Assembly: GCA_903907985.1 (NCBI GenBank)
Contig: CAIVQG010000044.1
Coordinates: 1-38,259 of the forward strand
Direction of reading: 5' to 3'
DNA: 38,259 nucleotides
Source: an uncultured delta proteobacterium
GTDB taxonomy: Bacteria; Desulfobacterota; Syntrophia; Syntrophales; Smithellaceae
Part shown: in pieces, positions 7,739 to 27,230 of the stretch
Layout: each line of letters opens with the position of its first letter
Numbering within the stretch: position 1 is the stretch's first letter
Position numbers and translations under genes: made by a program
Notes under the pieces: generated by a model
Databases searched by the model: none
Told to the model about the DNA's origin: nothing
Seen by the model: the letters and a program-made list of their open reading frames with translations, nothing else

Positions 7739-8815
7739 ATGTATGCTGTTATAATGGCCGGAGGACGGGGAACAAGGTTTTGGCCGCGCAGTCGAGAAAA
7801 AAAACCGAAACACTTATTGGACATCATCAGTAATCGAACCATTATTCAGGAAACTGTTGACCGCATATTGCCACTGATTGAGCCGGAAAAAATTCTGGTT
7901 GTTACCGGCAAGAAACACGCCCGCGCCCTGATGAAACAACTTCCCGCAATCCCTTCCGCCAATATTATTATTGAACCGGAAGGTAAAAATACCGCACCCT
8001 GTATTGGCCTGGCGGCGTTGTATGTCCAAAAGAAAGCCGGCGATGATGTTATGGTTGTATTGCCTTCCGATCATGCCATTGCCGATCCCGTCAGATTCCG
8101 GCAAGTCATCAAAGCAGCAGCCCAAAAAGCGGCCAGTGGAGATGCGCTGGTTACTATCGGGATTAAACCCACGAGCCCCCAAACCGGTTTTGGTTATATT
8201 GAACAGGGAGATTCTATTGAAAGGAGAACAACAGAAGAAATTTTCCGTGTAAAATCAATTCGGGAGAAACCTGATTTCCAGCAAGCGTTGGAGTTTCTAC
8301 AAAGCGGCAATTTTTATTGGAACAGCGGTATGTTCATTTGGAAAGCATCCACTATCTTAAAATCAATTTCCCGCTGGTTGCCTGATTTATTTTCAGGACT
8401 CACAGCAATTAACGAAACACTGGGATTGCCGGGAGAAAAAGCTGCTGTACGCCGGATCTATAAAGATCTTGTTCCGATTTCCATAGATTATGGCGTTATG
8501 GAAAAAGCAGATAATATTTTTGCAGTCAAAGGAGATTTTGGCTGGAGTGATGTGGGCAGTTGGGATGCGCTTTGGGAAATATCGGCCAAAGATGAAAACG
8601 GCAATACCTTTATCGGCTGCAGTAATGTGATTTCCGCCGACAGTACCGGCTCTCTTGTTTACAGTCCGAGAAAGCTGGTTGCTCTTGCCGGTGTAAAAGA
8701 TTTGATTGTTGTGGAAACTGAAGATGCCCTGCTTATCTGCCAAAAAGGCAACTCCCAGGATGTTAAGAAAATAGTTGACATTCTGGAAGCAAAAAAAATG
8801 AACAAATACCTTTGA
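7739..8815 (+). CDS. mannose-1-phosphate guanylyltransferase (short, single-domain)
   Basis: The start ATG at 7739 follows GAGGAG by 6 nt. The 358-residue enzyme carries the nucleotidyltransferase signature MAGGRGTRFWPRSREKKPKHLL at its N-terminus, the PSDHAI metal/nucleotide motif, FGYIE, the EKP motif (SIREKPD), and the NSGMFIWK and FGWSDVGSW segments typical of GDP-mannose pyrophosphorylases. It makes GDP-mannose from GTP and mannose-1-phosphate for surface polysaccharide. It ends before the cupin domain found in bifunctional ManC/AlgA proteins, so it lacks the isomerase part. It stands alone on the plus strand, with the minus-strand selenoprotein gene facing it. Some members act on related sugar phosphates. 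Confidence 0.93.
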   Translation: MYAVIMAGGRGTRFWPRSREKKPKHLLDIISNRTIIQETVDRILPLIEPEKILVVTGKKHARALMKQLPAIPSANIIIEPEGKNTAPCIGLAALYVQKKAGDDVMVVLPSDHAIADPVRFRQVIKAAAQKAASGDALVTIGIKPTSPQTGFGYIEQGDSIERRTTEEIFRVKSIREKPDFQQALEFLQSGNFYWNSGMFIWKASTILKSISRWLPDLFSGLTAINETLGLPGEKAAVRRIYKDLVPISIDYGVMEKADNIFAVKGDFGWSDVGSWDALWEISAKDENGNTFIGCSNVISADSTGSLVYSPRKLVALAGVKDLIVVETEDALLICQKGNSQDVKKIVDILEAKKMNKYL

Positions 8816-8844: not shown

Positions 8845-8871
8845 GAAAAAACGGCAAGTCCATCGCTGCCG
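8845..8871 (-). terminator. probable intrinsic terminator of the selenoprotein gene
   Basis: Read on the minus strand, CGGCA (8871-8867) and TGCCG (8856-8852) form a 5-bp stem with a 10-nt loop. TTTTTTC follows directly (8851-8845). It lies 31 bp after the stop codon at 8903. The stem is short, so strength is uncertain. It also lies 29 bp beyond the convergent guanylyltransferase stop. Confidence 0.5.
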
Positions 8872-8902: not shown

Positions 8903-9199
8903 TTACTTTAAATAAATTGGTTCGCCAGTGACTGTAAATTTCCCTTTTTTGAGCTCATTGATAATCATGCCGAGGGTAGTCTTCTCGTCATCAAAAGTAA
9001 CAACCAATAGATCATGTCCCTGATTCTCGTACTTATTCACTCCCTTAATTTTCTGCAGGATAGTACCTATCCGGGCATGGGAGTTTCAAGACGCACAACC
9101 GGGTACAGTCAACTGGATGATTCTCTCTGTGGCAAAAGCGGCAGAGGAAAAAGTCAAGAAAAACAAAAAACAAATAAATATGCCGGCAACCTTTTTCAT
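8903..9199 (-). CDS. exported HMA (MerP-like) domain protein with in-frame UGA, likely selenoprotein
   Basis: From the ATG at 9199 (GAGGTT 5 nt upstream) the frame reads a signal peptide MKKVAGIFICFLFFLTFSSAAFA and then TERIIQLTVPGCAS. It meets TGA at 9086-9088 and continues open for 60 codons to TAA at 8903. If UGA is selenocysteine (residue 38), the product is 98 residues. The part after UGA (NSHARIGTILQKIKGV ... LLVVTFDDEKTTLGMIINELKK) completes the beta-alpha-beta-beta-alpha-beta heavy-metal-associated fold, and the metal-binding CxxC becomes C-A-S-U. A hairpin with the layout of a bacterial SECIS follows the UGA. The protein should be periplasmic and bind a soft metal or act in redox chemistry. 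Standard gene calling would miss it. A pseudogene is the alternative, but the signal peptide, frame, SECIS, promoter and terminator all look intact. Confidence 0.8.
9039..9088 (-). promoter_or_regulatory. bacterial SECIS-like hairpin after the in-frame UGA
   Basis: On the minus strand, UGA (9088-9086) is followed by an outer stem ACUCCC (9084-9079) with GGGAGU (9044-9039). An apical stem GGAUA (9072-9068) with UAUCC (9062-9058) holds the loop GGUAC. The loop GGU begins 18 nt after UGA, the same distance as in E. coli fdhF as I recall that sequence. SelB recognises such a GG(U)-bearing apical loop. The element lies wholly inside the coding frame, as bacterial SECIS elements do. Confidence 0.7.
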
Positions 9200-9221
9200 T
9201 TTTAACCTCGTTTATTTTGTG

Positions 9222-9249
9222 ATTATATAATAACTTCAAATTACATCAA
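9222..9249 (-). promoter_or_regulatory. sigma-70 promoter for the selenoprotein gene
   Basis: On the minus strand TTGATG (9249-9244) and a perfect TATAAT (9227-9222) are 16 bp apart. Transcription would start near 9214, giving a leader of about 15 nt that holds the GAGGTT ribosome site. It is divergent from the maf promoter at 9270-9298. Confidence 0.55.
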
Positions 9250-9330: not shown

Positions 9331-9924
9331 ATGGCTATCAATATTTCCAACCCCTTTATTTTAGCATCCGCATCACCCCGCAGGCAGGAATTGTTACGAT
9401 CGGTGGGATTTAAATTTAAAACCATACCCGCTCACGTCAACGAAGACTATATTAACGGAGAAAGTCCGCGGGAACATGTCAAAAGACTTGCTCGGGATAA
9501 AGCACGGGCTATCGCTCGTAAATATCCTGGGTCTTGGGTGCTGGGTGCCGATACAATAGTTGTTATTGACGGGTTGATTTTAGGCAAACCAAAAAACAAA
9601 ACGCAGGCCCGGCAAATGCTGGAGAGGCTCAGCGGCAGAGAGCATAAAGTATTCACCGGTTTTACTCTCAGCCACGCGGCTTCCCGATCTATAAAAACAA
9701 AAGTTATCCAGTCGGCGGTGCAATTTAAACACATCTGCGCCGGAGAAATGGAATGGTATACAGCTTGCGATGAACCATATGACAAAGCCGGTGGCTATGC
9801 CGTGCAGGGAAAGGGAGCATACTTCATTCAGTCTATTCGCGGCTCTTATACCAATGTAATTGGCCTGCCGCTTTGCGAAGTATTGGAAGAACTGAAAAAA
9901 ATGGGAGCAATAAATTTCGGGTAA
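9331..9924 (+). CDS. maf: Maf-family nucleoside triphosphate pyrophosphatase
   Basis: The 197-residue protein opens with FILASASPRRQELLRSVGF, the Maf signature, and has the catalytic segment WVLGADTIVVIDG, followed by LGKPKNKTQARQMLERLSGREHKVFTGF and DKAGGYAVQGKGAYFI. Maf enzymes are cytoplasmic pyrophosphatases that remove non-standard or excess nucleotides (dTTP/UTP-, m7GTP- or pseudouridine-type depending on subgroup) and can restrain cell division. The subgroup cannot be set from sequence alone. Length is normal. The stop is 7 bp before the yggS start on the same strand, so the two form an operon. Confidence 0.94.
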   Translation: MAINISNPFILASASPRRQELLRSVGFKFKTIPAHVNEDYINGESPREHVKRLARDKARAIARKYPGSWVLGADTIVVIDGLILGKPKNKTQARQMLERLSGREHKVFTGFTLSHAASRSIKTKVIQSAVQFKHICAGEMEWYTACDEPYDKAGGYAVQGKGAYFIQSIRGSYTNVIGLPLCEVLEELKKMGAINFG

Positions 9925-13988: not shown

Positions 13989-15437
13989 TTATTTCTCCGG
14001 TTCAAACTGATTTTTTGCCGACCAGAAAGACGGCAAGTGACGCAGCAGATACAGGAGGCTTTTACGGTGCTGCCACAGTCGTTTGCGGAATTTTTTGCGC
14101 CAGCCCCAATCCGAATAAAAGCGCTTCACATGCTCGTTGTAAAGTTGATCGAGCCTTTCTTTTGATTTAATCCCTTGCGGAACGAAAACAAAATTCAGGC
14201 AATTCATCAGCCGCCAGTCTTCATTAAAAGTTCCTTCATTCCTGATTGTCCCCCAGAGCGGCGCGCCAAGGAAAGGTGTGAACTTGGCCATGTTCATATC
14301 GTCGAGCCCCAGCGAAATGATAAAGTCCGAAGTAAGTTGAATTGATTCCTCCGTCTCTCCCGGGAGCCCCATCATGAATAATCCTTTGGCGCGCAAGCCC
14401 GCTGCCTGAATGCGCCTCACGGTATCGCGCACATCAGCGAGTGACACGCCGGATTTGTGCCGGTTAAGCATTTGCGGGTCGGCAGATTCGATGCCCAGTG
14501 AAACCATAAGACAGCCGGCATCTTTGAGCATTCTCAGAAGATCATTATCAGTATAACCGACACGTACAGCGCAGTTAAAATTGATTCCTAAGGGGAAGCG
14601 GGTGAGTTTATCGCAAAGCTCCACAATGCGCGGACGGTTGGCTGTAAATAAATCGTCATAAATATTGATGTGCCCTACTCCGAATTGAGTTCGCAGATGC
14701 TTCATGTGCTCATAAATGTATGTGGCCGAATTATAGCGAAACCCTTTTTTGAAAACGGAGCGGTCACAATAAGAACACTGATACATGCACCCCCGCGACG
14801 TAATCATCGTTGAACCGGGCGTATTTACGTAACTGAACAGGGGGAGATGATAATCGTGAGGAAACCCGTCCAGCTTTTCGTAGGCCGGAAACGGCAGGCT
14901 ATCCAGGTCGGCAATCTGCGGACGCGGTTCATTAGTAATTGCTTCAGTCCCCTTGTGCCAGATGAGCCCCTTAATTTCTGCGGGATCAATACCGGCGACA
15001 AGCTCCGTCATCGTGAGTTCGCCTTCTCCGGCGACAAGATAGTCAAATGAAGGATAATCATCGAGCAGTTTACCTTTCAGCGCGGAAACATGGACGCCGC
15101 CGCAGACAGTGACAATATGGGGAGAGATTTCTTTGATCTTTTGGGCTAGACTCGCAGCGTCAGGAAAAGAAGAAGTCGTTGCCGAAAAACCAACGATCAG
15201 GGGCTTACATGCCAGAATTGCCGCGGCCTGTTCGTTCAAATCAACCGGCGCATGGGGGCCGAGGCAATCGAAAATAAATACTTCGTGACCTTCCTGTTCC
15301 AGATAGGCAGCGATAGATAGCAATCCCTGAGGCACCATCCGGTTGGCGATATCCGTAATATCCGTTTTTCCGGGGAACCAGTTAAAGCCGCGCGGATGGA
15401 CAAGAACTATTCGTTTTTTTTCATAGGATAATATCAT
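13989..15437 (-). CDS. radical SAM protein with B12-binding-type N-terminal domain
   Basis: The ATG at 15437 overlaps the preceding stop by 4 bp (ATGA), so I use it rather than the longer frame from 15611. The 482-residue protein has a Rossmann-like N-terminal domain (KKRIVLVHPRGFNW ... GLLSIAAYLEQEGHEVFIFD, GEGELTMTELV) as in cobalamin-binding radical SAM enzymes, though the usual DxHxxG base-off motif is not evident. The radical SAM cluster CMYQCSYC gives C217, C221 and C224. The lines VSLGIESADPQMLNRHKSG and KGLFMMGLPGETEESIQ are typical of the family. These enzymes methylate, cyclise or rearrange unactivated carbons using a 4Fe-4S cluster. As the last gene of the ketosynthase operon it probably tailors the acyl product. 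Confidence 0.9.
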   Translation of the reverse strand: MILSYEKKRIVLVHPRGFNWFPGKTDITDIANRMVPQGLLSIAAYLEQEGHEVFIFDCLGPHAPVDLNEQAAAILACKPLIVGFSATTSSFPDAASLAQKIKEISPHIVTVCGGVHVSALKGKLLDDYPSFDYLVAGEGELTMTELVAGIDPAEIKGLIWHKGTEAITNEPRPQIADLDSLPFPAYEKLDGFPHDYHLPLFSYVNTPGSTMITSRGCMYQCSYCDRSVFKKGFRYNSATYIYEHMKHLRTQFGVGHINIYDDLFTANRPRIVELCDKLTRFPLGINFNCAVRVGYTDNDLLRMLKDAGCLMVSLGIESADPQMLNRHKSGVSLADVRDTVRRIQAAGLRAKGLFMMGLPGETEESIQLTSDFIISLGLDDMNMAKFTPFLGAPLWGTIRNEGTFNEDWRLMNCLNFVFVPQGIKSKERLDQLYNEHVKRFYSDWGWRKKFRKRLWQHRKSLLYLLRHLPSFWSAKNQFEPEK

Positions 15438-16459
15438 AAAATTGTTGCAGCCGCCACCAGAGCCTGTTTTCCGGAACCATGACAATTGTAATGGACATAA
15501 AGGGCATTTCCCGAGCCTTGCATGGCGCGGGCAATGCCAAAGGCGGCAGCCGTCGGAGAAATGCCGCAATGAGGCAGATAATCTTCCATAATCCAGCCCT
15601 GACGCCGCCATAATTCTGCATTAGTGTCCGGCAGGCGGAAACCGACCAGCAAGGTTGGCTTTATGCCTTTTAAAGAAATTCCGGCATTTCCGGCAACTGC
15701 CGAAAGAAATTGGGCGCAATTCTGTGCGATTTTTTCGTTTGCCGAAAGATATTGCGGGGACACAGTCTTATTGTGAAATTCCACAGCCAGGATATCACCC
15801 AATTTTTTCTTGCCGTTATTGCCAACCAGCAGCCAGGAACTGCCTTCGCCCATTGGCAGCAGGCGGGCATTATCCGCGGTCAAGTTCATCCGTTCGCGGT
15901 AATCCGCAACGGTCGGCGTAAAGACATCACAGCCGCCGACCAGAGCCAGATCAATGTCACCGCTCTCGAGGTAGCTTTGCGCCATCCATAAAGCCGATTC
16001 AAAAGATAATTCTTCCTGCGAAATGGTGAGCACCACTCCCTTGACTTCACAGATTTTAGCCAGAAAAAAAGCGGCGGCGTTGCTTACGGAATTGGCAAAC
16101 TGATTCGGACTGGGAAATCCGCCATCATGCTTAAATACCTGCTTAATAAAGGGCAGGATTTCATCGACATTGCCTAATCCTGTTGCCAGAAAAATTCCAA
16201 TTTTTTTGCCCTTTAAATCTTCCGGTGGCACACTTTTCAGGCAACTCAGAGCTCCGCAGCAGACCAGTTTGATAAACCGTCCGGCCCGCCGCAGCGGCTG
16301 GCCCATTATTTCCTGCACCAGATCATCGGCGGATAGCGGCAACAAGGCTTCCTCCCACGCTCCGTCCCGATTGGGTGTGAGCGCCGGACCGAGATAGCTT
16401 GCCGCAATTACCGGCATTGCCGTTGTGCCATTTTCTTTTTCGTTTCTCATTTGCGTCAT
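15434..16459 (-). CDS. ketosynthase-like protein without catalytic Cys (chain-length-factor-like)
   Basis: The 341-residue protein has the thiolase-like layout of beta-ketoacyl synthases: IGIFLATGLGNVDEI, FANSVSNAAAFFLAK, GDIDLALVGGCDVF and a late glycine turn NCHGSGKQAL. The nucleophile loop reads TISQEELSFESAL (145-157) where active enzymes have TIS-x-A-C-S-S. The Cys position is Glu150 by alignment, and no HGTGT motif is visible. It is therefore unlikely to condense by itself. It may pair with the active ketosynthase encoded upstream, as chain-length factors do in type II PKS and aryl polyene systems. The start at 16459 lies 9 bp from a palindromic insertion, and no ribosome site is clear; M15 (16417) is an alternative. 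The radical SAM gene overlaps its stop. Confidence 0.82.
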   Translation of the reverse strand: MTQMRNEKENGTTAMPVIAASYLGPALTPNRDGAWEEALLPLSADDLVQEIMGQPLRRAGRFIKLVCCGALSCLKSVPPEDLKGKKIGIFLATGLGNVDEILPFIKQVFKHDGGFPSPNQFANSVSNAAAFFLAKICEVKGVVLTISQEELSFESALWMAQSYLESGDIDLALVGGCDVFTPTVADYRERMNLTADNARLLPMGEGSSWLLVGNNGKKKLGDILAVEFHNKTVSPQYLSANEKIAQNCAQFLSAVAGNAGISLKGIKPTLLVGFRLPDTNAELWRRQGWIMEDYLPHCGISPTAAAFGIARAMQGSGNALYVHYNCHGSGKQALVAAATIL

Positions 16460-16467
16460 TTCTGATT

Positions 16468-16843
16468 TGTCATTCCCGCGCAGGCGGGAATCCAGTCTCT
16501 TTATTTTATAAACCTAAATTATTTCGTTATATAAGTCTTTCCATTCCGGATTATTTTCTTCAATACAACGTATCTTCCATTTCTTCATCTGCTTTTCTCT
16601 TAAAATTGCGTCTTCTACATCTCTGTGTGCTTCATAATATACGAGATTGTGGATATTATATATTTTTGTAAATCCATCTACAGCGCTTTGTTTATGTTCA
16701 AGAATTCTTTTTAATAAATCACCGGTAACACCAATGTACAATGTTGCATTCTTTTTGCTGGCAAGAATGTAAAGGTAATAATTTTTTATCAGTCAAGCTT
16801 AATTACCTTTTGTTTCTGGATTCCCGCCTTCGCGGGAATGACA
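16468..16843. mobile_element. 376-bp element with 28-bp terminal inverted repeats around a GIY-YIG gene
   Basis: The 28-bp ends at 16468-16495 and 16816-16843 are inverted copies differing at one base. Each is itself a palindrome: ATTCCCGC and GCGGGAAT around a 4-nt loop (16472-16491, 16820-16839). Between them is the minus-strand GIY-YIG reading frame. The element fills almost the whole 422-bp gap between the ketosynthase gene and the ketosynthase-like gene. It looks like an insertion into a once-tight operon. No direct target duplication is obvious to me. Confidence 0.65.
16514..16789 (-). CDS. GIY-YIG nuclease-domain protein, start codon degenerate
   Basis: The frame reads KNYYLYILASKKNATLYIGV at its N-terminus, the YxYIL...LYIG form of the GIY-YIG motif. 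It continues with DLLKRILEHKQ, VYYEAHRDVEDAILREKQMKKW and a C-terminal NPEWKDLYNEI, as in the short stand-alone UvrC-like family of about 90 residues. The codon where relatives start with ATG is ATA at 16787-16789. A TGA lies two codons further up. Translation would need CTG at 16792 or ATA, or the internal TTG at 16741, which loses the first motif strand. The gene may be newly decayed. It is enclosed by the inverted repeats of the element at 16468-16843, and DNA nicking at such palindromes is a possible role. Confidence 0.7.
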   Translation of the reverse strand: MKNYYLYILASKKNATLYIGVTGDLLKRILEHKQSAVDGFTKIYNIHNLVYYEAHRDVEDAILREKQMKKWKIRCIEENNPEWKDLYNEII

Positions 16844-16881
16844 GCGTGAAAGGGAGAATGACTACAAAACACCTCTTCGTA

Positions 16882-18051
16882 TTACTCCTTTATTACTAAA
16901 TAACTCGTACACGTTCCGCCGAAGCCGAAGTAAGTAAAAAGGTACGCGCCATCGTCGGCTGGAGTATTGACCTGCGCTGGCGGAAAACCTATTTCGGGAT
17001 CGACTTCTTCAAACCCGAAACTGCGGGGAATTATTCCTTCTTCACAGCAGGAAAGCCAGACCGCTGTTTCCACCGCACCGGCTGCGCCCAGAGTATGTCC
17101 CATAGCGCCTTTGAGGGAAACGACCGGAGGAAGTTTTGCCCCGAAGAGCTTCAGCAATCCCCGGCCCTCAGAAAGATCATTGTCTCTGGTGCCTGTACCG
17201 TGGGCTTTAATGGCCACAATATCATCAGCTGATATTTCTGCTTTATCAAGAGTGTGCAAAATGACATCTTTAACCAGTTCGCCATCAACACCCGCCGATG
17301 TAAGACTGTTTGTATCGTTAAATAAATAGCCTCCGGCAAACATATATTTTGCCTTGCTGGCAGAAGACGTTTCATTTTGTTCCAGAATCACCGCCGCTGC
17401 TCCTTCTCCGATCTGCATACCGGAGCGCTTATTACAAAAAGGTCGGCACTTATCATCGTCATATAAAAGCAGACTGGCAAAACCGTGTAAAGTAAGGTTT
17501 AAAAGCGGTTCATAGCCGACAACGATGGCCCGGCGGATTTTCTTTTGTTCCAGAAGCTGTGCAGCAACTACTAAAGCATGCGAGCTGGAGACGCAAGCCA
17601 TGCTGAAGGTCATCGCCATGCCCCTTATGCCATACTTTTGGCTAATCCATTCGGATACCTCGCCGGGGCCGCGGTTGCGGCAGGCAATAGACGGTGACTC
17701 CTTGTCCGGATTATTGCGCACCGCTTCTGTAAACTCGTATTCGTTACGAATAAAAAGACCGCCGGTTGTTCCGACAAGCAGGCAGGATTCGGCAATCTCC
17801 GCCGAGGTCAATCCGGCACGACTGAACGCTTCCGTAAGAACGCAATCGAGCATTGCCCAGGATTTATCCATAGCGTTGCCTTCATGTGGAACTTCAAAAG
17901 CTTTATAATTGTGACTGATCAAATGTGAAGAACGGCCACAGGCGGCAGGCGAGGCAAGACCGGCAATCAAATTTTTTGCCGATACTTCGGCGCTCCAGCC
18001 TAAAGTTGTTACTGCTCCCCAACCGCGAATGCAGATATTGCTCTTGGTCAC
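16882..18051 (-). CDS. beta-ketoacyl-ACP synthase (FabF-type)
   Basis: The 389-residue protein has the full catalytic triad of elongating ketosynthases: Cys153 in FSMACVSSSHAL, His284 in KAHGTGTRDND, and His319 in LKGAMGHTLGAAGA. The closing Gly turn is FGFGGTCTS. It should condense malonyl-ACP with an acyl chain carried by the ACP encoded immediately upstream (4-bp overlap). Two features separate it from housekeeping FabF: its place in an export/tailoring operon and a shorter length (389 against about 412). The N-terminus is MTKSNICIRGWGAVTTLGWS. An element insertion separates it from the Cys-less ketosynthase-like partner downstream. Confidence 0.93.
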   Translation of the reverse strand: MTKSNICIRGWGAVTTLGWSAEVSAKNLIAGLASPAACGRSSHLISHNYKAFEVPHEGNAMDKSWAMLDCVLTEAFSRAGLTSAEIAESCLLVGTTGGLFIRNEYEFTEAVRNNPDKESPSIACRNRGPGEVSEWISQKYGIRGMAMTFSMACVSSSHALVVAAQLLEQKKIRRAIVVGYEPLLNLTLHGFASLLLYDDDKCRPFCNKRSGMQIGEGAAAVILEQNETSSASKAKYMFAGGYLFNDTNSLTSAGVDGELVKDVILHTLDKAEISADDIVAIKAHGTGTRDNDLSEGRGLLKLFGAKLPPVVSLKGAMGHTLGAAGAVETAVWLSCCEEGIIPRSFGFEEVDPEIGFPPAQVNTPADDGAYLFTYFGFGGTCTSYLVIKE

Positions 18052-18359
18052 TTTTTAACCTTCGGTGCAGAGATGACAAAATCGGCCAGAGTATCAAAGG
18101 ACTGCATTGCGCTGGCCGCAGTCGATGCATTTTTCAGTTCCACCCCAAACTGATACCTCAGCTCCATGGCTATTTCCATGGCATCAAGGCTGTCGAGTTT
18201 AAGAGGCCCCGGTCCGTTGATGAAAGGAACATCAGTGGGCACATCTTCCGGTTTTACATTTTTTACTTCACAGGCTTTAATAATCATTTCTTTGAGCTTG
18301 AAAATTAACTCTTCCCGTGATGATACATTCAAATCTTTTAAATTCTGATTTACATCCAT
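18048..18359 (-). CDS. acyl carrier protein
   Basis: The 103-residue acidic protein has the phosphopantetheine site at Ser57 in LKLDSLDAMEIAMEL, and helices typical of an ACP. An N-terminal extension of about 18 residues precedes the usual fold, and the C-terminus ends in a basic KVKK. It holds the growing chain for the ketosynthase encoded downstream. Its stop overlaps the ketosynthase start (ATGA), and its start overlaps the end of the ABC permease gene by 10 bp. It is a dedicated ACP rather than the fatty-acid AcpP, as shown by the DSLDAM variant and its position. Confidence 0.93.
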   Translation of the reverse strand: MDVNQNLKDLNVSSREELIFKLKEMIIKACEVKNVKPEDVPTDVPFINGPGPLKLDSLDAMEIAMELRYQFGVELKNASTAASAMQSFDTLADFVISAPKVKK

Positions 18360-19471
18360 TTAATTCTTCTCCCTGCAACATAAAAACAAATCAGCGCAAA
18401 AATCGTCAAAATAACTAACTTGGATAAAACATAACTAAATGACGCTTCGCGCAAAAAAACATCAAGATAAGCCTGATGCGCCCAATACATCGGTGAAATC
18501 ATTGCCAGCGTCTTCATGAACTGCGGCATGACGACATGCGGTACCATGATCCCGCCGAACACACCCATAAGAACAGCGCCAGTCGCGGCCAGTGTCGATG
18601 ATTGCTCCGGCGTTCGGGCCATTGCCGCCACCAGCACTCCGAACCCTGTGGACGCTGCAGCTGTAACAATAGTTACCGGCATCAGTTGCCATGGATGTTC
18701 ACCCAGATTAAAAGTCAGCCCGGTGAGCTGCGGTATCACATAAAAACCGACTGCCAGCATTAAAACAAACTGAATCAAATTAATTAAATAATAAGGTATA
18801 AGCTTTCCCAATGCAACTAAATTGGCGCTGACCGGATAAGTAAAAAGACGTTGCAAAGTCCCGATATTTTTCTCCCGCAAAAAGCCGATCGACATGGGAA
18901 TCGCTATAAAAAACATGGCAAAGATAGACCAGCCTGGAACGCTGTGCTGCAAAGGGCTGGGGAATTGGGTGTTTTTCTTTGTTTTCTCCACAACAAAATT
19001 GGCGACCAGGACATCAATATCATCTACCCCCAGAACAACTTCTGCGGCAAGGCTGGCAATAAGCGATCGCAGGGCCATCTTGTATCCGGCATCGAGCACC
19101 GGATCAAAGTGGATTTCGACAGGCTTTGTGCCGTCGTCAAAGCCGTCCGGAATTAAAACAGCGGCATGCGCCTTGCTATATTCAAAGAGCTTATCGTTGT
19201 CATAACCCTTGGGCCGGGCGATGAGGCGAATTAATTTATTGGCGCCTATTCTCTTTTCGAGTTGCAGTGCTTTGGGGGCACGACTGGCATTTTCCAGAAC
19301 TAAAGAAATCTGATGGCCGGTAACCTTATCCACATAGACGCCCTGCAGTGCCAGTGACAGGAAAAAAATCAGCGCCACCGGCATCAAAAAAAGCAGGGGA
19401 ATAGTCTGGCGATCGCGCAGCAAAATCAGCAGTTCTTTGCGGATCAGTTCTTTTAATTGCCGTAAAATCAA
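18350..19471 (-). CDS. ABC-2 type transporter permease
   Basis: The 373-residue membrane protein has an N-terminal segment (LLFLMPVALIFFLSLALQGVYV), a large external domain of about 130 residues, and five more membrane segments in the last 200 residues. It includes the ABC-2 motif PISANLVALG-like YPVSANLVALGKLIP and a long final pair of helices ending FYVAGRRIKWM. It should pair with the ATPase encoded upstream to export a lipid or hydrophobic product across the inner membrane. The gene begins 174 bp after the ATPase stop; that gap holds a palindromic insertion. The end overlaps the ACP gene. Confidence 0.92.
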   Translation of the reverse strand: MILRQLKELIRKELLILLRDRQTIPLLFLMPVALIFFLSLALQGVYVDKVTGHQISLVLENASRAPKALQLEKRIGANKLIRLIARPKGYDNDKLFEYSKAHAAVLIPDGFDDGTKPVEIHFDPVLDAGYKMALRSLIASLAAEVVLGVDDIDVLVANFVVEKTKKNTQFPSPLQHSVPGWSIFAMFFIAIPMSIGFLREKNIGTLQRLFTYPVSANLVALGKLIPYYLINLIQFVLMLAVGFYVIPQLTGLTFNLGEHPWQLMPVTIVTAAASTGFGVLVAAMARTPEQSSTLAATGAVLMGVFGGIMVPHVVMPQFMKTLAMISPMYWAHQAYLDVFLREASFSYVLSKLVILTIFALICFYVAGRRIKWM

Positions 19472-19519
19472 TTTAAATTCAGCTCCATATGTTTTTCAAA
19501 TTATTTCCGTAATCTGTAT

Positions 19520-19637
19520 AAATGGATTAGCCAAAGCAGGGCGAGGCGGCAAGGCGCAGGCCCCGCAGGCGTATGTTTTGATACGACGAGGACGCCTGCA
19601 CCGCGGCCAACAAAGCCATGCACAGGATAATCCATTT
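19520..19637. repeat. 118-bp palindromic element between ABC ATPase and permease genes
   Basis: AAATGGATTA (19520-19529) and TAATCCATTT (19628-19637) are exact inverted ends. The interior is GC-rich, with ggcgaggcggcaaggcgcag on the left and gacgcctgcaccgcggcc on the right, which can pair in part. No ORF is present. It is a different family from the elements at 4455-4600 and 7544-7672. It lies within an operon whose other genes overlap, which suggests insertion. Confidence 0.65.
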
Positions 19638-19645
19638 GATAATAC

Positions 19646-20365
19646 TTATTCATCGCGCAAATGATGCCCCGTCTTTTCCAGAAATAATTTTTCCAGATTA
19701 TCAATTGCGGCCATTCCTCCTGTAAAAACAACCGCTCCCCTATCCATCATCGTCACGCGGGAACAGAGGCGTTGCGCCTCATCCATAATATGGGTACAAA
19801 GCAATATCGTCATTCCGGTCGCGTTGAGGGCGGTGAGCGTTTCGTAAATATGGTGGCGGCTCTGAGGATCAACGCCTACCGTCGGTTCATCCAGGAGCAG
19901 CAGTTTGGGCTCATGCAACAGAGCAACGGCCAGATTCAAGCGCCGCAGCATTCCACCCGAATATGTAGAAACATTTTTATGCGCGTATTGGACAAGTCCT
20001 GTTTCTTCCAGGACGGCAACAGATCTTTCTTGCAGTTTTTCTGGGGTCAATCCGGCCATAACGCCGAAGAACCGCAGATTTTCATAAGCGGTGAGGGCTG
20101 TAAATACAGAAACCGGTTGAGGAGCATAGCCGATATTTTTCAGGCCAGCGGATTGGGACGCGTTATCGCCATAGATGAACACCGAACCTGCGTAACCACG
20201 CAATTGCCCGGTAATCACACGCATCAGGGTGGTTTTCCCCGCACCGTTGGGGCCGAGCAGAGCATGTATTTCACCACCGGCAACGGACATGGAAAAGTTT
20301 TGTAGTGCACATTCAGTGGCAAGATCATAGGAAAACGTTATGGCGGAAATGTCCAGTGCTTTCAT
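19646..20365 (-). CDS. ABC transporter ATP-binding protein
   Basis: The 239-residue protein has Walker A GPNGAGKTT (38-46), signature YSGGMLRRLNLA, Walker B LLLLDEPTVGVD and the switch His in LLCTHIMDEAQ. It belongs to the drug/lipid-exporter ATPase type (CcmA/DrrA-like), in keeping with an ABC-2 permease partner. It powers export through the permease encoded downstream. The start ATG overlaps the stop of the BtrH-like gene by 4 bp. The last residues (FLEKTGHHLRDE) end just before the palindromic element at 19520-19637. Confidence 0.94.
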   Translation of the reverse strand: MKALDISAITFSYDLATECALQNFSMSVAGGEIHALLGPNGAGKTTLMRVITGQLRGYAGSVFIYGDNASQSAGLKNIGYAPQPVSVFTALTAYENLRFFGVMAGLTPEKLQERSVAVLEETGLVQYAHKNVSTYSGGMLRRLNLAVALLHEPKLLLLDEPTVGVDPQSRHHIYETLTALNATGMTILLCTHIMDEAQRLCSRVTMMDRGAVVFTGGMAAIDNLEKLFLEKTGHHLRDE

Positions 20366-21396
20366 GCCTTGAGTTTCCTAACAACAGAACGGAGATTTCT
20401 GAATAGTTCCTCTTCACGTTCCGCGCAAATCATCATCAATCCTCCCGCTTTATCGAAATTATCTTCTGACTGGCCTCTTTGCTTGATGATACGTGCGGAA
20501 ACTATGGCAAATTCCCTCCAGATGTCGCCTATAGCAGTCATTTCTCCGGATAAAAGGACAAGATCATCCGAACCGAAGAGTTCTGCAGCTTCTTGAAGGA
20601 AAGCAGCGTACATATAGCGGAATCCTGCGCCGCCTGTGCCTACCTCCTCCTGCATTCGGACGATACTGGACAGTTCACGGCAGGCTCCCTGAAAACCAAG
20701 TTTATCGGGACTGTGAATAACTTTTTTAGCCAAAAAACGCATCCCCCGGATGCCGAAAATCGGCAGAGGAATCCTGAGCATCATATTACAGGTATCTTTC
20801 ATGCCTTTTATACAGGCGTTACGCAGGTCGGGTTTAAGTACGATTGATTGCGGGTAATACATAAAGCCGTGCGGTTCCAGAGGGCCATGGGCGAATCGCG
20901 CCCGCTCCAGGTCTTCCGTTGGACAATCCACCGGCCACTCAAGCATCGGATCGCTCACGCGGAAACCACCCTCAATTTCCCGCAGTGCAATTAAATTATG
21001 GCCGTTGAACTGAAAGCGGAAACGGTTGGGAAAATAGGAAAGCCAGTAAATATTGGTTGTCAACCCGACTATCTGTCCCGTCTTAAGGACGCGCCTCAAC
21101 TCATCCATGCCTTTTTGAGGATTGCGGAACCGTGAGGTAATAAATTTACCACCCAGTCGTTTGGCTGATTTGCGAAAGACGGCTCCCGGCTGAGACCGGA
21201 ACGTGCTGATAGTCACACCAGCCATTTTCACAAATGGCAAATGGCCGAAAAAAATGCCGCTGCCGATTCCGAAAATCATTGGTTCGGAGATTTCTACGCC
21301 TTTGTCCCGAAACAAAGCGGAGGTAACACCACTTTCACAATGGGCGGAATGCCGATGGATAAAAGGTTTTCCGCCTGCCGTTATTTCTGTGCTCAT
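20362..21396 (-). CDS. BtrH-like protein (BtrH N-terminal plus DUF4872-type C-terminal)
   Basis: The 344-residue soluble protein begins PFIHRHSAHCESGVTSALF, which matches the N-terminal cysteine motif of the BtrH family, with Cys20 as the likely nucleophile. GIGSGIFFG, GQIVGLTTN and WPVD segments follow. The later helical half, with FRYMYAAFLQEAAELFGSDDL, is like the DUF4872 region. In butirosin synthesis BtrH transfers an acyl chain from a carrier protein to an amine. By family it may therefore take the chain off the operon's ACP and form an amide or ester, but the acceptor is unknown. It overlaps the ABC ATPase gene by 4 bp and follows a small unknown gene by 20 bp. Confidence 0.82.
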   Translation of the reverse strand: MSTEITAGGKPFIHRHSAHCESGVTSALFRDKGVEISEPMIFGIGSGIFFGHLPFVKMAGVTISTFRSQPGAVFRKSAKRLGGKFITSRFRNPQKGMDELRRVLKTGQIVGLTTNIYWLSYFPNRFRFQFNGHNLIALREIEGGFRVSDPMLEWPVDCPTEDLERARFAHGPLEPHGFMYYPQSIVLKPDLRNACIKGMKDTCNMMLRIPLPIFGIRGMRFLAKKVIHSPDKLGFQGACRELSSIVRMQEEVGTGGAGFRYMYAAFLQEAAELFGSDDLVLLSGEMTAIGDIWREFAIVSARIIKQRGQSEDNFDKAGGLMMICAEREEELFRNLRSVVRKLKA

Positions 21397-21416
21397 CTAC
21401 TGAATGTTACCTTTCC

Positions 21417-21812
21417 TTAAGTTGGTACGGTTTTTAATTCTTTTCGAGTCACCGCCAGCGCCTGCGCATAACGGTCTAAAACAGATGTTTTAAGTTTGGC
21501 AAAAATCTCGGGACGCAAATGCCTTTTGAGTCTGAATTTGGCGATGCCCGCTGTTTTAGCCAGAATCTCCGGTGTCATCTGACGGAGCTCCATGTGATAG
21601 CAAAGCGGACTTTTCGAGCCGGCTAAAACCGCCTGTCTGGTTACTTCCAGACTGGCTGCCATTTCGTCAACGGCCAGGCCGTTGACCACAGCTTCAACAT
21701 CCCAGCCGGAACTGGGGACGATGACATACTTGCCCTCGTCGTTGAGCGCATAACAGGCGCGTTTTTTGCCTTCATAATAAGTAATGTCCTGGGGTACCTC
21801 GTTAGCTTTCAT
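21417..21812 (-). CDS. small conserved-looking protein of unknown function
   Basis: This is a 131-residue soluble protein. Its first half has the segment YALNDEGKYVIVPSSGWDVEAVV, and VDEMAASLEVTRQAVLAGSKSP reads like a helix-turn-helix or small helical module. The second half is basic and helical (KFRLKRHLRPEIFAKLKTSVLDRYAQAL). It sits between the acyltransferase and the BtrH-like gene, with 20 bp to the latter. I do not recognise a family. It could be a small partner of the BtrH-like protein or a regulator, but the sequence supports neither. Confidence 0.7.
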   Translation of the reverse strand: MKANEVPQDITYYEGKKRACYALNDEGKYVIVPSSGWDVEAVVNGLAVDEMAASLEVTRQAVLAGSKSPLCYHMELRQMTPEILAKTAGIAKFRLKRHLRPEIFAKLKTSVLDRYAQALAVTRKELKTVPT

Positions 21813-21915
21813 CTTCAGCCCTGCCCCTGATCATATTTGTATTACTGATTATTCTTATACTAATTTTATTGGAGCTCAAAGAAAAATCTATTTTGTCGAG
21901 TATTTTTCAAGGGTA

Positions 21916-22840
21916 TTAATTTTTTTTGCCGAGAAACGGTTCGAAATGATGCCACTCGAAGGGATGGGCGCTGGCAAAACGGGCGAGATCGTCGGCATAA
22001 ATCTGTGCCGATTCTTGCACTGCCTTTTTCCGCTCCGCACGCGTGGCGGCGAAAACCTTCCGGCCCGGGGAAACTTTGATATGATAGGTTCCGGCAATAT
22101 CCGAATAAACGAAAAAAGTCAAAAGCGGCGCGCCCGTCATCAGAGCAAACAAATGCGGTGTGTCCGGGAGTTTCGCTTCATGACCTAAAAAGTCAACCAC
22201 CACATGACTTTGTTCACCCCAGAGACGGTCACCCGTCATGGATACAATGCCGCCTTCGCGCAGGAAATTAATTCCTTCGAGCAGAGCAAAAGGCGACTTT
22301 TCGCTCTCGGATGTCGCTACTATGCGAATGCCGCTTTTGGCGAGCTTGTTCTTTTGAATACCCTCAACCTGCTCTTTGTGTTTGGCTCCGAGGTAGAGCA
22401 TAATCGGCAGTCCTTTGCGGTTGAGCATTTGCGCCGCCAGTTCCCAGTTACCGATATGCGACATAATCACAATCGCCCCGGTTTTTTTTTTCTACCGCTT
22501 CATCCAGATATTCCCAGCCGTCTTTGACAAATTCAATCTCGTCTTCGGCAAGCCTGACAAAACGATGGAGATAGACATCGGTGAAATTATGATACTGTTT
22601 CCACACGCAGTATAGATGATAGAAAAAGCCGCGCCCGGAAAAAAGTGCGCGGTAGAACTTCAGGCTTTCGGCCACCCGCATCGGAAAAAGAAAAAAATAA
22701 CCGGTTGCGATGCACCAGGAAAAAGCACGGAAAAACCAGATACCCAGGTGCCGCGATAAATAGACAGCTAATTTATATGAATATTTTTTCATAAAGCAAT
22801 GGATATCCGTTAAGCCGTTGTTCAATAATAACTGCAGCAT
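21916..22840 (-). pseudogene. LpxL/HtrB-type lipid acyltransferase with one-base frameshift at an A10 run
   Basis: The first frame (22840-22448; a second Met at 22792 is an alternative start) encodes KLAVYLSRHLGIWFFRAFSW and WKQYHNFTDVYLHRFV, typical of the lipid A acyltransferase N-terminus. It ends EAVEKK at a run of ten A residues (22482-22491). If one A is removed, the frame continues as TGAIVIMSHIGNWELAAQM and on to 21916 (EPFLGKKN). The catalytic HxxxxE motif HIGNWE falls just after the run. The total is about 308 residues, normal for the family. Members move acyl chains to lipid A or similar envelope lipids; some act in aryl polyene-type clusters. An indel in the assembly, true decay, or slippage on A10 that restores some full-length product are all possible. 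Confidence 0.85.
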
Positions 22841-22973
22841 TGTAATATAGTAACCGGCATAAGGGACCGTAACAAAATGGTCTTGCCATAACCTGATAAC
22901 CTAACCACATGAAGGTGGCGCGAGGTCGCGAAAGGTCACAAGACCCGCAGGGGTGATTATTTCGTAACGGCCC

Positions 22974-24035
22974 CTAAGAGGTATGCCTCTCGTGCTGAAC
23001 CAGTAATGTTCTCGTGGGGTAGGCAAATTCAATTCCGGCCTCTTGGAAACGGCGGAACATTTCCAGATTGATCGCTTGTTGTATGTCCATATAAACATTA
23101 TAGTTCTGGCTTTTTACAAAATATACAACTTCATAATTGAGAGATGAATCACCATACTCTTTAAAATGAACGCGGTCAAATCGCACCTTTTCCTGTTTCA
23201 GAATTATCTCCTTTAATATATTGTTGATTAGCGGCAATTTTTCCGCAGGCGTCTGGTAGGTAACTCCGAAACCAAATAGAATGCGTCTTTCCACCATCCG
23301 TTTAAAATTCTGTATGCGGCTCTTGAGCAAATCATTGTTAGAAAAAATAAGTTGTTCACCACCCAGGCTGCGCAGCCGGGTGGTTTTCAGGCCTATGTGT
23401 TCGACGGTTCCCTTCAACTGATCGACAACAATGAAATCTCCTACAACAAATGGTTTGTCAATGACAATGGATAAAGAGGCAAACAGATCGCCTAGGATAT
23501 TCTGGGCAGCTAGAGCTATGGCAATACCGCCGATTCCCAACCCGGCAACCAGACTCGTGATATTGACACCCAGATTATCGAGTACCAGAAGCAGGACGAT
23601 CGACCACAACAGAAGCTTGCTGATAAAACCGAGAACGGAAATAGTGGTGGTGCTGGCGGCGTTATCCGCCATACGTTTTCTTACGTTTACGCTGATGACA
23701 AAACTGATTCCCCTGCCCACCCAGAAGGCAATCTGGATAATCACCACAACAAAAAATATTTTATTCCCTGCTTTAAGTATATTCGGCTGCAGGACAATAA
23801 ATTTTGAACCAATATAAACGGCTACAAAGAAAAGGAATAATAGGTTGGTTTTAGAAAGGACGGCCAGTAGTAGGTCGTCGATTTGCGTTTCGGTCCGTTT
23901 GGCCAGGCAGGATAAACGCCGCAGGATGATTTTTTGTATAAGTATCAATGTCAGGAAGGCTACACACATCACGCCCAGAGCGATAAGCCAGGTTTGTAAA
24001 GTATTGCCGAAGAATATATTTGTCAAAAACGTCAT
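22974..24035 (-). CDS. MscS-family small-conductance mechanosensitive channel
   Basis: I start at the ATG at 24035, which follows GAGGAG by 6 nt; the longer frame from 24071 overlaps the upstream gene and lacks that site. The 353-residue protein has four to five membrane segments in its first 170 residues. The pore-lining segment SLVAGLGIGGIAIALAAQNILGDLFASLSI follows, then the beta domain (KPFVVGDFIVVDQLKGTVEHIGLKTTRLRSLGGEQLIFSNNDLL). A cytoplasmic alpha-beta domain ends the protein. It relieves turgor on membrane tension. It starts 11 bp after the exporter-methyltransferase gene and probably shares its message. Whether it acts with the product of the operon is unknown. Confidence 0.93.
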   Translation of the reverse strand: MTFLTNIFFGNTLQTWLIALGVMCVAFLTLILIQKIILRRLSCLAKRTETQIDDLLLAVLSKTNLLFLFFVAVYIGSKFIVLQPNILKAGNKIFFVVVIIQIAFWVGRGISFVISVNVRKRMADNAASTTTISVLGFISKLLLWSIVLLLVLDNLGVNITSLVAGLGIGGIAIALAAQNILGDLFASLSIVIDKPFVVGDFIVVDQLKGTVEHIGLKTTRLRSLGGEQLIFSNNDLLKSRIQNFKRMVERRILFGFGVTYQTPAEKLPLINNILKEIILKQEKVRFDRVHFKEYGDSSLNYEVVYFVKSQNYNVYMDIQQAINLEMFRRFQEAGIEFAYPTRTLLVQHERHTS

Positions 24036-24046
24036 GCTAATCTCCT

Positions 24047-27000
24047 CTATGATTTCTTTCCCACAAACCATTTTTCTTCCACACCGGCCGTTGGTGATGC
24101 GGAAACGGTAACATCATATCCGGCCCTTGTCATGAAAGCAGCAATCTCTTTTTCATTGCGGAAACGTTCCGGTGTGTGAGCATGTCTTAAGCGGAATGAT
24201 TCGATCCAGCGTTTCCAGGGTACTTTTATGTCCGAAGGAACAGTTGCGCGGATGAGCAGAGTACCATTTGCCTCCAGTTTTTCATTAATCCGACGCAATA
24301 CCGTTTGCAGTTCATCATCGGAAATCAAATGCAGCATATCCAGCATGATAACGTAATCGACTTCACCGTCAACAGAAGGCAAATCGGGAGCTCTACCCAC
24401 TTCCGCCTTGCCGCGGTCACCGATAACCCGAGATGCTATACGCACTCTCTCCTCATCCGGTTCCAGACCATAGACTTTTGCCGCGGGATAAATTTCCAGC
24501 AGCCATACTGCCGGAATTCCATAACCGCAACCGATATCTATTATTCTGCGGGGTTTGCGCACATACTTGTCCAGTTCTTTAAACATCGGATCAATCTTCA
24601 TTTTAAACCGGGCAAATAGCCTGGGATAAGCTTCCAGATGACGGTAACGCAAAATTGCCCGGCGCAAATGCTTTTTTGAACCGGCCTCAAGAGGTCCTGA
24701 CGGAAAGGTAAACGGCGCATATATTTTTTTCATCAATGAAGGCAGAATGAAATAAGCTCCAGTGATGGAATAACCTATGCCCAAAAGAGAGGTAAGCCCA
24801 ATGCTGTGCAGAAGGGAGTGCGAGGCAAAGGCCAGTACTCCAAAGCCGATCAGTGTTGTGAAGGAGGCGAGAAACATCGCCATTTTAATTGTATCCAGTG
24901 CCGGATGGTTTTCATCGCGATATCGCTGATAGAAACAAGCATAATAAATGGAGTAATCAATCCCCATTCCCATAATGACAATCCAGAGCATGATACTCGG
25001 TATGTCCAGCGGATGCCCGATAATCTTCAGTGTCCCCAGTGTTGACACCAGAGCAAAAGCGATGGGCGCAAGCACGGCCAGTGACAGGAGCCAGTCCAGA
25101 TAAAATAAAAATACGACCAGCACAATGCCAATGCTGGTAATCAGCGCAATTTCGAGAAAGATTCTCTTAAGGGAGTCCCCCAGTCTTTTGTTAAATAAGC
25201 CGACATCAAATATCTTGGCCAGGCCAGTAGGGACAATACGGGAGACGAAATCATCCGCATCATAAATTTTACCGGTTGCCAGTAAGCTCAGTTGGGTAAA
25301 ACCGGCCGGTCCCTTTGTAATTCCGAAAAATTCAAAATACTTTTCCGGTATTTCTCCGGGTTGCGGATTTTTATTGTTGATGATTTCCCAGAATGGATTA
25401 AAAGCGCCTGAGGAAAAACCGGTCTCCCGCGCCGCCGCATTAATATCAAACTTCAGTTTGGCCAAACGTTTCGGAGTCCAGAAATTGCGCCAGGCTTCGA
25501 AGTTCTCTCGGCCCCGCTCGGGAGAGGGGAACAGCAAAGAAGGAAGAAATGCGGCAGATAGTTTGCCTGCTTGCACATCTTTTGTTAATAGCGGCAGCAA
25601 CTGATCATTCTTCTGCTGCAATTGGGAAATATCCGGAGCCTGCAAGAACACATAACACTTGCCGGAAAGATCACCCCATGTTTTCTGGATATTATTTTCG
25701 GCCGTTATGGTCTCTTTGCTCAGGGAGTTCATCGAGTTGATATCGACGTTGAACACCGGCCGGGCAAAGAAAAGCATCACCAAACCAAAGGCCAGCGCGG
25801 CAATCAACTTCCATCTTGCCGGGGCGGCAATATTTTTTATAGTATTGAACAACAAGAGATTGCTCAGTCGCTGAGCGGGAGGCATTGTGGGAAATATTAT
25901 GGGGAAAATAAAATGAACAAATAGCAATGCAAATGTTACGCCGAGTGCGGAAAAAACGCCGATTTCCGCCAGTATTTTAAAATCACTGATCAGCAGCAGA
26001 AGAAAGGCGCCAACTGTAGTCAATACAGCCAGAAGTTCCGCCGACCACACTTCCCGCGCTACCTGTTTGCCGTAAGTTTCTTTCGGCTGATCTAAAAAAA
26101 GTAAATAGGTAATTCCCAGATCCACTGTAAAGGCCATAATGGCTCCGCCAAAACCAACAGCCAACATGGACATGGATTTAAAGAAAAAAGAACAAACAAA
26201 CAAAGCAGCAATAGCCCCCACAGTTGATGGCAGAAGAGCCAAAAGGCCAATGAGTGGCCGGGGAAAGGCAAATAAAAGTAAAAGGGCAATACCCAGAGTG
26301 GTTAAGACAATGGCGATATGCGTATCACGCTTGGCGGTAGTTTCATTATCCAGAGCAGCACGGTAGGCGCCTACGGAATTGAGCGAATATTTTTCGCCTT
26401 TTAATGCCGGAACTGACGGCAATTCCTTCTCTATGTCTTTAAGAAGCGCCGATATTTTGGCACCGATAGCAGTATCCGTTCCCGATCCGGCAATTTTCGC
26501 GATAATGAGGACGTGTCGGCCGTCTTCTGAAATTAATTGACCCTGATAGAATTGGGCCTTACTGGCAGGCATAAGTGCGGATAGTTGCCGCAGGACAATT
26601 CCGGAAAAACCGAGTGGATCACTGGCGATCATTTCAGCTCGGCCGATTCCTTCGAGTTGTTCCAGGCTCTGTTTGTTGCGGATAAAAGCCTCTTTAATCC
26701 GGTTCGTCTCCAGGAGTGGTTTAATTTCTGCTTCCAGTTTTTCAGCATGAAAGAGAAGCGGGAGACTATTTGTAACATGAGTCATCAACTCCGGGAAATA
26801 CCTGGCCTCGTCATTAATTCCCACTTTGGCAAAAAGACCGCTTTTGTTGAGCTTGTCTGTGATGATTACAGCCGCCCCGGCCAGTTTGTCTCTATCCGCA
26901 TCAGCCGACTCATTGCTGAGATCAATAAACAACCGGTCCTGAATGGGTAAATGTTTGATAATCTGGCGGGCATCGGACAGTACCGGATCGCTTTGCGGCA

Positions 27001-27121
27001 TTGATTCCAGAATGTCGGTTTCAATTTTGAGATAGTTGGATTCCCAGACAAATAACAGCGCCACGGCAAAAGCAACTATTACAACTATCGGCCATTTTAT
27101 TTGATATTTACGTAGTGACAT
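24047..27121 (-). CDS. MMPL/RND-type exporter fused to a SAM methyltransferase domain
   Basis: The ATG at 27121 (a TTG at 27130 is less likely) starts a 1024-residue protein. Residues 1-795 are an RND/MMPL transporter, with a first membrane helix, an external domain, and two blocks of membrane helices. The first block includes SMLAVGFGGAIMAFTVDLGITYLLFL and the second WIVIMGMGIDYSIYY; both carry the Gly-Asp proton-relay type motif. From about residue 795 comes a linker, then a class I methyltransferase with motif I RRIIDIGCGYGIPAVWL (about 858) and YGLEP, and DYVIMLDMLHL. The last part ends at the stop 24047. MMPL exporters move lipids or polyketide-type products to the periplasm. Encoding a methyltransferase in the same chain suggests modification on the cytoplasmic face during export. 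It is the first gene of the long operon. Confidence 0.9.
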   Translation of the reverse strand: MSLRKYQIKWPIVVIVAFAVALLFVWESNYLKIETDILESMPQSDPVLSDARQIIKHLPIQDRLFIDLSNESADADRDKLAGAAVIITDKLNKSGLFAKVGINDEARYFPELMTHVTNSLPLLFHAEKLEAEIKPLLETNRIKEAFIRNKQSLEQLEGIGRAEMIASDPLGFSGIVLRQLSALMPASKAQFYQGQLISEDGRHVLIIAKIAGSGTDTAIGAKISALLKDIEKELPSVPALKGEKYSLNSVGAYRAALDNETTAKRDTHIAIVLTTLGIALLLLFAFPRPLIGLLALLPSTVGAIAALFVCSFFFKSMSMLAVGFGGAIMAFTVDLGITYLLFLDQPKETYGKQVAREVWSAELLAVLTTVGAFLLLLISDFKILAEIGVFSALGVTFALLFVHFIFPIIFPTMPPAQRLSNLLLFNTIKNIAAPARWKLIAALAFGLVMLFFARPVFNVDINSMNSLSKETITAENNIQKTWGDLSGKCYVFLQAPDISQLQQKNDQLLPLLTKDVQAGKLSAAFLPSLLFPSPERGRENFEAWRNFWTPKRLAKLKFDINAAARETGFSSGAFNPFWEIINNKNPQPGEIPEKYFEFFGITKGPAGFTQLSLLATGKIYDADDFVSRIVPTGLAKIFDVGLFNKRLGDSLKRIFLEIALITSIGIVLVVFLFYLDWLLSLAVLAPIAFALVSTLGTLKIIGHPLDIPSIMLWIVIMGMGIDYSIYYACFYQRYRDENHPALDTIKMAMFLASFTTLIGFGVLAFASHSLLHSIGLTSLLGIGYSITGAYFILPSLMKKIYAPFTFPSGPLEAGSKKHLRRAILRYRHLEAYPRLFARFKMKIDPMFKELDKYVRKPRRIIDIGCGYGIPAVWLLEIYPAAKVYGLEPDEERVRIASRVIGDRGKAEVGRAPDLPSVDGEVDYVIMLDMLHLISDDELQTVLRRINEKLEANGTLLIRATVPSDIKVPWKRWIESFRLRHAHTPERFRNEKEIAAFMTRAGYDVTVSASPTAGVEEKWFVGKKS

Positions 27122-27230
27122 GCAAACCAAGAAATTTATGCAGTTTTTAGTCTAAAAAGCTGTCTTTCTAAACCATATTTCCCGCCTTGCCGCAAGCTAA
27201 AAGAAACTTCATTAATTGTTTCTGCTGCTA

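Follow-up and report, generated by a model that had tools for sequence, protein, structure and literature searches.

A predicted exported selenoprotein of HMA fold in an uncultured delta proteobacterium and its relatives

A reading frame on the reverse strand of a 38,259-nucleotide stretch of DNA from an uncultured delta proteobacterium (analysed whole, and here called the window) raises the question of whether its one internal TGA ends a short peptide or is read as selenocysteine (Sec) within a metal-binding domain and, if the latter, what the resulting protein might do. Standard gene callers would cut such a protein at residue 37. The frame (8903-9199, minus strand) holds 98 codons plus a stop and translates as MKKVAGIFICFLFFLTFSSAAFATERIIQLTVPGCASUNSHARIGTILQKIKGVNKYENQGHDLLVVTFDDEKTTLGMIINELKKGKFTVTGEPIYLK. 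It contains exactly one internal TGA, codon 38 (9088-9086, minus strand), in the motif V-P-G-C-A-S-U; read as selenocysteine, this codon gives C35-A36-S37-U38. The TGT codon of Cys35, the first residue of the CxxU, lies at 9095-9097 (minus strand).

The signals around the frame lie on the same strand. A GAGG ribosome-binding site (9206-9209), read directly, stands 6 nt upstream of the ATG. Residues 1-23 resemble a classical signal peptide, with cleavage placed between SSAAFA and TERI and an AxA-like cleavage motif in 74 of 78 members; the product is probably exported and periplasmic, to judge from its N-terminus, and one HMA domain makes up the remainder. Downstream of the gene, an intrinsic-terminator-like hairpin, CGGCA...TGCCG followed by TTTTTT, occupies 8852-8871 (one found, 0.4 expected in shuffles). 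The promoter-like site TTGATG-16-TATAAT (a -35/-10-like pair at 9222-9249) is a consensus match only, and it adds little because chance alone often yields sites as good (the 561-base stretch held 5, with 1.9 expected). The preliminary description of this locus had proposed a single TGA at the second Cys of a CxxC, giving C-A-S-U, with a signal peptide ahead of it and a promoter, ribosome site and terminator framing the gene. The frame bears out the position of the TGA and the N-terminus is signal-peptide-like; all three framing elements are present, although the promoter match is of chance-level quality.

Decoding of codon 38

Of 99 genomes from the same family and order, 73 carry a homologue of the window protein, and almost every homologue repeats the frame with its one TGA; conservation of the frame in so many genomes indicates that the open frame is more than a product of chance. 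Among 78 distinct aligned sequences, the codon-38 position is TGA in 75 and TGT in three, and Cys35 is likewise kept in 77 (Tyr in one), being lost in distant relatives. The preliminary description had stated that relatives with neither Cys nor Sec at the TGA position, or a genome lacking selA, selB and tRNA-Sec, would speak against it; with 75 Sec and three Cys among the 78, the first of these was not what we observed, and nor was the second, as described below. A query built only from the residues after the Sec, and thus blind to Sec versus Cys, matched 24 genome loci, all with TGA, in records assigned by title to Syntrophaceae, Smithellaceae, Smithella and unclassified Deltaproteobacteria. 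The three Cys copies are nested within Sec clades of the tree (starred support 95/84 around L050 and L099, and 100/93 for L093), a placement implying that Cys replaced Sec at least twice. Estimates of dN/dS over codons +11 to +59, downstream of the hairpin described below, range from about 0.03 to 0.4, both against relatives and among relatives. Such purifying selection past the UGA indicates that the protein beyond it is made and selected.

Two further matches call for separate mention. A viral-contig sequence was rejected as a homologue, since it aligns by chance over 15 residues and then runs into unrelated sequence. At another locus, G368:C1:55419-55708, a Sec-HMA relative has its match split over two frames past the Sec codon, by sequencing error or decay.

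Beginning 11-12 nt past the UGA, at 9056-9074 (minus strand), is a SECIS-like hairpin with a stem of 6-7 bp (GGATA/TATCC core) and the loop GGTAC, supported by covariation and folding. The family form is AGGATA-GG(T/G)NC-TATCCT, about 12 nt downstream of the UGA, and it shows two hallmarks of a SECIS element: a covarying stem, at columns 15-33 of the alignment (numbered from the U of UGA), and a G in the apical loop, GG(T/G)NC. Among the 68 gapless Sec members in which pairs were counted (67 CxxU and one YxxU), all six core pairs form in 65, whereas synonymous recoding under the codon usage of the family gave a mean of 7 and a maximum of 17 in 2000 trials. Changes on both sides were seen in six of seven stem pairs, with a covariation score reached by none of 500 shuffles (36 sequences picked for diversity), and RNAalifold recovers the same helix unaided. 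The Ile at codon +6 is ATA in 52 of 52 sequences; elsewhere in these genes ATA is the rarest Ile codon. One outer pair is broken in the window copy (C opposite T), and its hairpin still folds; in all three Cys copies the hairpin is broken.

The 3.4 Mb source genome (83 contigs) encodes tRNA-Sec (77.4 bits) together with selA (607 bits), selB (368 bits) and selD (370 bits). Its selD (G000:C66:16328-17257) itself has an in-frame TGA and is likely a selenoprotein. More widely, tRNA-Sec was detected at a strict threshold in 60 of the 73 homologue-bearing genomes and selB in 10 of the other 13, so that 70 of the 73 have one or the other; the remaining three are assemblies 68-85% complete.

Taken from sequence comparison, UGA codon 38 is almost certainly decoded as selenocysteine, and the gene is accordingly almost certain to be that of a selenoprotein. 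A highly improbable alternative, namely that the TGA ends translation or that the gene is a decayed MerP, leaving only a 37-residue peptide, can draw on the standard code, where TGA is a stop, and on a Pfam HMA match under the gathering score, but it has against it the exact TGA kept by 75 of 78 homologues from many families of the order, purifying selection that continues past the TGA, a hairpin conserved beyond amino-acid need and the full Sec machinery of the genome, and we reject it on conservation, selection and hairpin.

Fold, known relatives and genomic neighbourhood

An AlphaFold2 model built from 25 aligned sequences has a beta-alpha-beta-beta-alpha-beta topology with core pLDDT above 90, and the top solved structures returned by Foldseek are HMA domains (HMA7, oxidized MerP, Atx1 and CopZ), with TM scores over the target of 0.80 for MerP 1osd and 0.84 for CopZ 2qif. 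Profile matches in the PDB point the same way (CopA 1e-14, MerP 2.5e-10, CopZ 1.7e-8), and each of the 20 scanned members matched the MerP profile TIGR02052. The Pfam HMA profile PF00403 gives the window protein an E value of 0.0017 and 19.1 bits, under the gathering threshold of 24.8; membership in the HMA family is supported by the predicted fold and profile comparison, the Pfam match alone being weak. The window protein falls under every NCBIfam cut-off. A completed HMA fold after the TGA had been anticipated in the preliminary description, which had also called for a search of HMA/MerP profiles, and the modelled topology, the Foldseek matches and the MerP, CopZ and CopA profiles agree with it, the Pfam score excepted.

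MerP (TIGR02052; PDB 1osd/1afi), likewise an exported single HMA domain of the same fold, is the top-scoring NCBIfam family (E 2e-9). Yet the window protein reaches 37.8 bits against a curated cut-off of 92.55, and it has PGCxxU where MerP has GMTCxxC. MerT was found in 0 of 49 relatives, the source genome included, whereas the same search, as a positive control, was positive in 13 of the 247 genomes scanned from the phylum; in several of those MerT-positive genomes, from other families, MerT has beside it an HMA homologue whose frame is free of internal stops. We therefore rejected assignment to the MerTP mercury operon: the Sec family resembles MerP in its fold without being the mer-operon protein. 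CopZ and CopA HMA domains also match the present protein in fold and profile. They carry CxxC and are cytoplasmic. Cys-type HMA proteins also occur in the source genome, on a separate contig (C63).

Two NCBIfam families come closer in their use of selenium. The UxxU metal-binding (seleno)protein NF041115 is related (E 0.0037 for the window protein; matched by 13 of 20 members), but the window protein scores 17.4 bits against a cut-off of 95, and NF041115 has two Sec per protein. NF045683, a MerT/CopZ fusion-like heavy metal transport selenoprotein, gives weak matches through its CopZ-like part (4 of 20 members scanned); it is a MerT/CopZ fusion, judging by its name, whereas the protein described here comprises one domain, probably secreted. 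The suggestion that the class may already be known was thus sound, and it extends to an earlier metagenomic survey. The 2008 GOS study lists 'Mercuric transport protein MerP' among Sec-containing families, with two sequences (PMC2398784, Table 2); the table gives it neither Cys homologues nor a Sec motif, and gives CxxU for other families. That entry is also a MerP-annotated selenoprotein and, compared by table entry, possibly belongs to the same subfamily. A 2026 review of 119 families includes a Sec 'putative mercuric transport protein' (PF02411), the UxxU metal-binding NF041115 and a Sec cation-transporting ATPase (PMC13188914); a single-domain CxxU HMA/MerP protein is absent among the 119 (PMC13188914). 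While Sec-containing proteins of the MerP/HMA kind were known before, what appears new here is an order-wide, mostly single-locus, MerT-less and probably secreted Sec-HMA family, a well-supported and widely conserved addition to the bacterial selenoproteins.

The selenoprotein gene stands alone in a gap between two plus-strand genes, both named from sequence: a divergent maf-like gene (9331-9924) and a convergent mannose-1-phosphate guanylyltransferase-like gene (7739-8815; start MYAVIMAGGRG), each in the same arrangement at 55 of 77 loci. Both neighbours are present at 51 of the 77 loci and one side at 8 more, in several families, and this conserved order across families indicates vertical descent at one locus. 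With its conserved neighbours on the opposite strand, the gene looks monocistronic. No metal genes were found near the conserved locus, and the ten neighbours of non-syntenic copies that were inspected held no recurring metal partner. An operon-based guess at function was dropped, since neither maf nor the guanylyltransferase, both on the opposite strand, suggests a pathway for metals. The distance between tRNA-Sec and the selenoprotein gene is only 11.5-18.4 kb in 14 genomes, which belong to two related genera. Two of the 14 were worked through, and in these tRNA-Sec lies towards maf and on the other strand; in the source genome it is on a different contig.

Metal binding and its alternatives

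How might the protein act? The account we favour, and hold to be somewhat probable as a whole, is that of an exported Sec-HMA selenoprotein serving as a stand-alone periplasmic soft-metal binder or carrier through Cys35 and Sec38. SelB and tRNA-Sec would insert selenocysteine at codon 38 as directed by the hairpin about 12 nt downstream, a step for which comparison argues strongly. The N-terminal signal peptide would direct export and leave about 75 residues as the mature protein, which fold and profile comparison predict to adopt the HMA fold of MerP and of the CopZ and CopA domains. Sec would then take the second Cys position of the metal-binding CxxC, where the first helix begins, and the Cys35 thiolate and Sec38 selenolate may together bind a soft metal ion such as Hg(II), Cu(I), Ag(I) or similar. 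By general chemistry, Sec would bind soft metals more tightly and stay deprotonated at lower pH than Cys. The protein would probably act alone; no MerT having been found, it does not serve a mer operon as its MerP.

Differences in the motif among relatives bear on this account. Among the 75 Sec members, 67, the window protein included, have CxxU, seven have CxU and one has YxxU; the motif reads PGCxxU in place of the canonical GMTCxxC. In the seven CxU variants the UGA comes one codon earlier, with the hairpin region at an unchanged codon position. Five Sec relatives with PSGGU, PGVVU or GYDSU lack the first Cys and are possible mono-selenol HMA proteins. The CxU and Cys-less relatives count against the metal-binder reading, the latter fitting poorly with an obligatory two-ligand site, as do the loss of GMTCxxC and neighbours that point to no metal pathway. 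That Sec is near-constant while its Cys partner varies suggests that selection keeps Sec rather than a Cys pair. A tentative extension, to which we give limited credence, is that the HMA domain was rebuilt around Sec as its sole essential residue, so that the protein would act in the periplasm through one selenol, as a soft-metal trap or a nucleophile, instead of as a two-thiolate metallochaperone. The family offers a natural experiment, in which Sec is retained across the order, reverts to Cys in paralogues that have also lost the hairpin, and persists where the Cys has gone, and through which the role of Sec in a metal-binding fold can be probed outside the thioredoxin world.

The main rival to metal binding, a redox role that the preliminary description had set beside soft-metal sequestration, would have the Cys-Sec pair form a reversible selenenylsulfide, the protein being a periplasmic redox carrier or reductase with the HMA fold only a scaffold. 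Many selenoproteins use CxxU as a redox motif (PMC13188914), and relatives that keep Sec after losing the first Cys are better matched by a nucleophile than by a metal site with two ligands; those same relatives, however, would need another resolving thiol, the fold is HMA and not thioredoxin-like, and a thiol-disulfide partner gene is absent from the conserved neighbourhood. We regard redox function as possible but doubtful.

Less probable still, and in our view decidedly unlikely, is a metal-binding role specific to mercury, with the selenoprotein feeding or protecting the HgcAB mercury-methylation route. MerP is the closest named family, and the source genome encodes HgcA (471 bits; G000:C57:86908-87897), making the organism a predicted mercury methylator; across the 99 relatives, HgcA occurs in 44 of 73 genomes with the selenoprotein gene against 5 of 26 without (Fisher p = 0.0005). 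Outside the family of the window, with phylogeny thereby roughly fixed, the figures fall to 9 of 23 against 5 of 25 (p = 0.21, not significant). Moreover, fifteen family genomes, some of them incomplete assemblies, have the selenoprotein gene without detected HgcA, and in the source genome HgcA is on a separate contig with no linkage. As the association is not significant once that family is set aside, we rejected the link to mercury methylation. The wider setting of the soft-metal binder that we favour is one of anaerobes, several of which also carry hgcA, the source being a syntrophic bacterium.

Elsewhere in the window, genes for ketosynthase, acyl-carrier, acyltransferase, MMPL-type transporter and ABC transporter proteins follow one another at positions 13989-27130; on visual inspection of the list of open reading frames, this run resembles an aryl-polyene or related lipid-type cluster.
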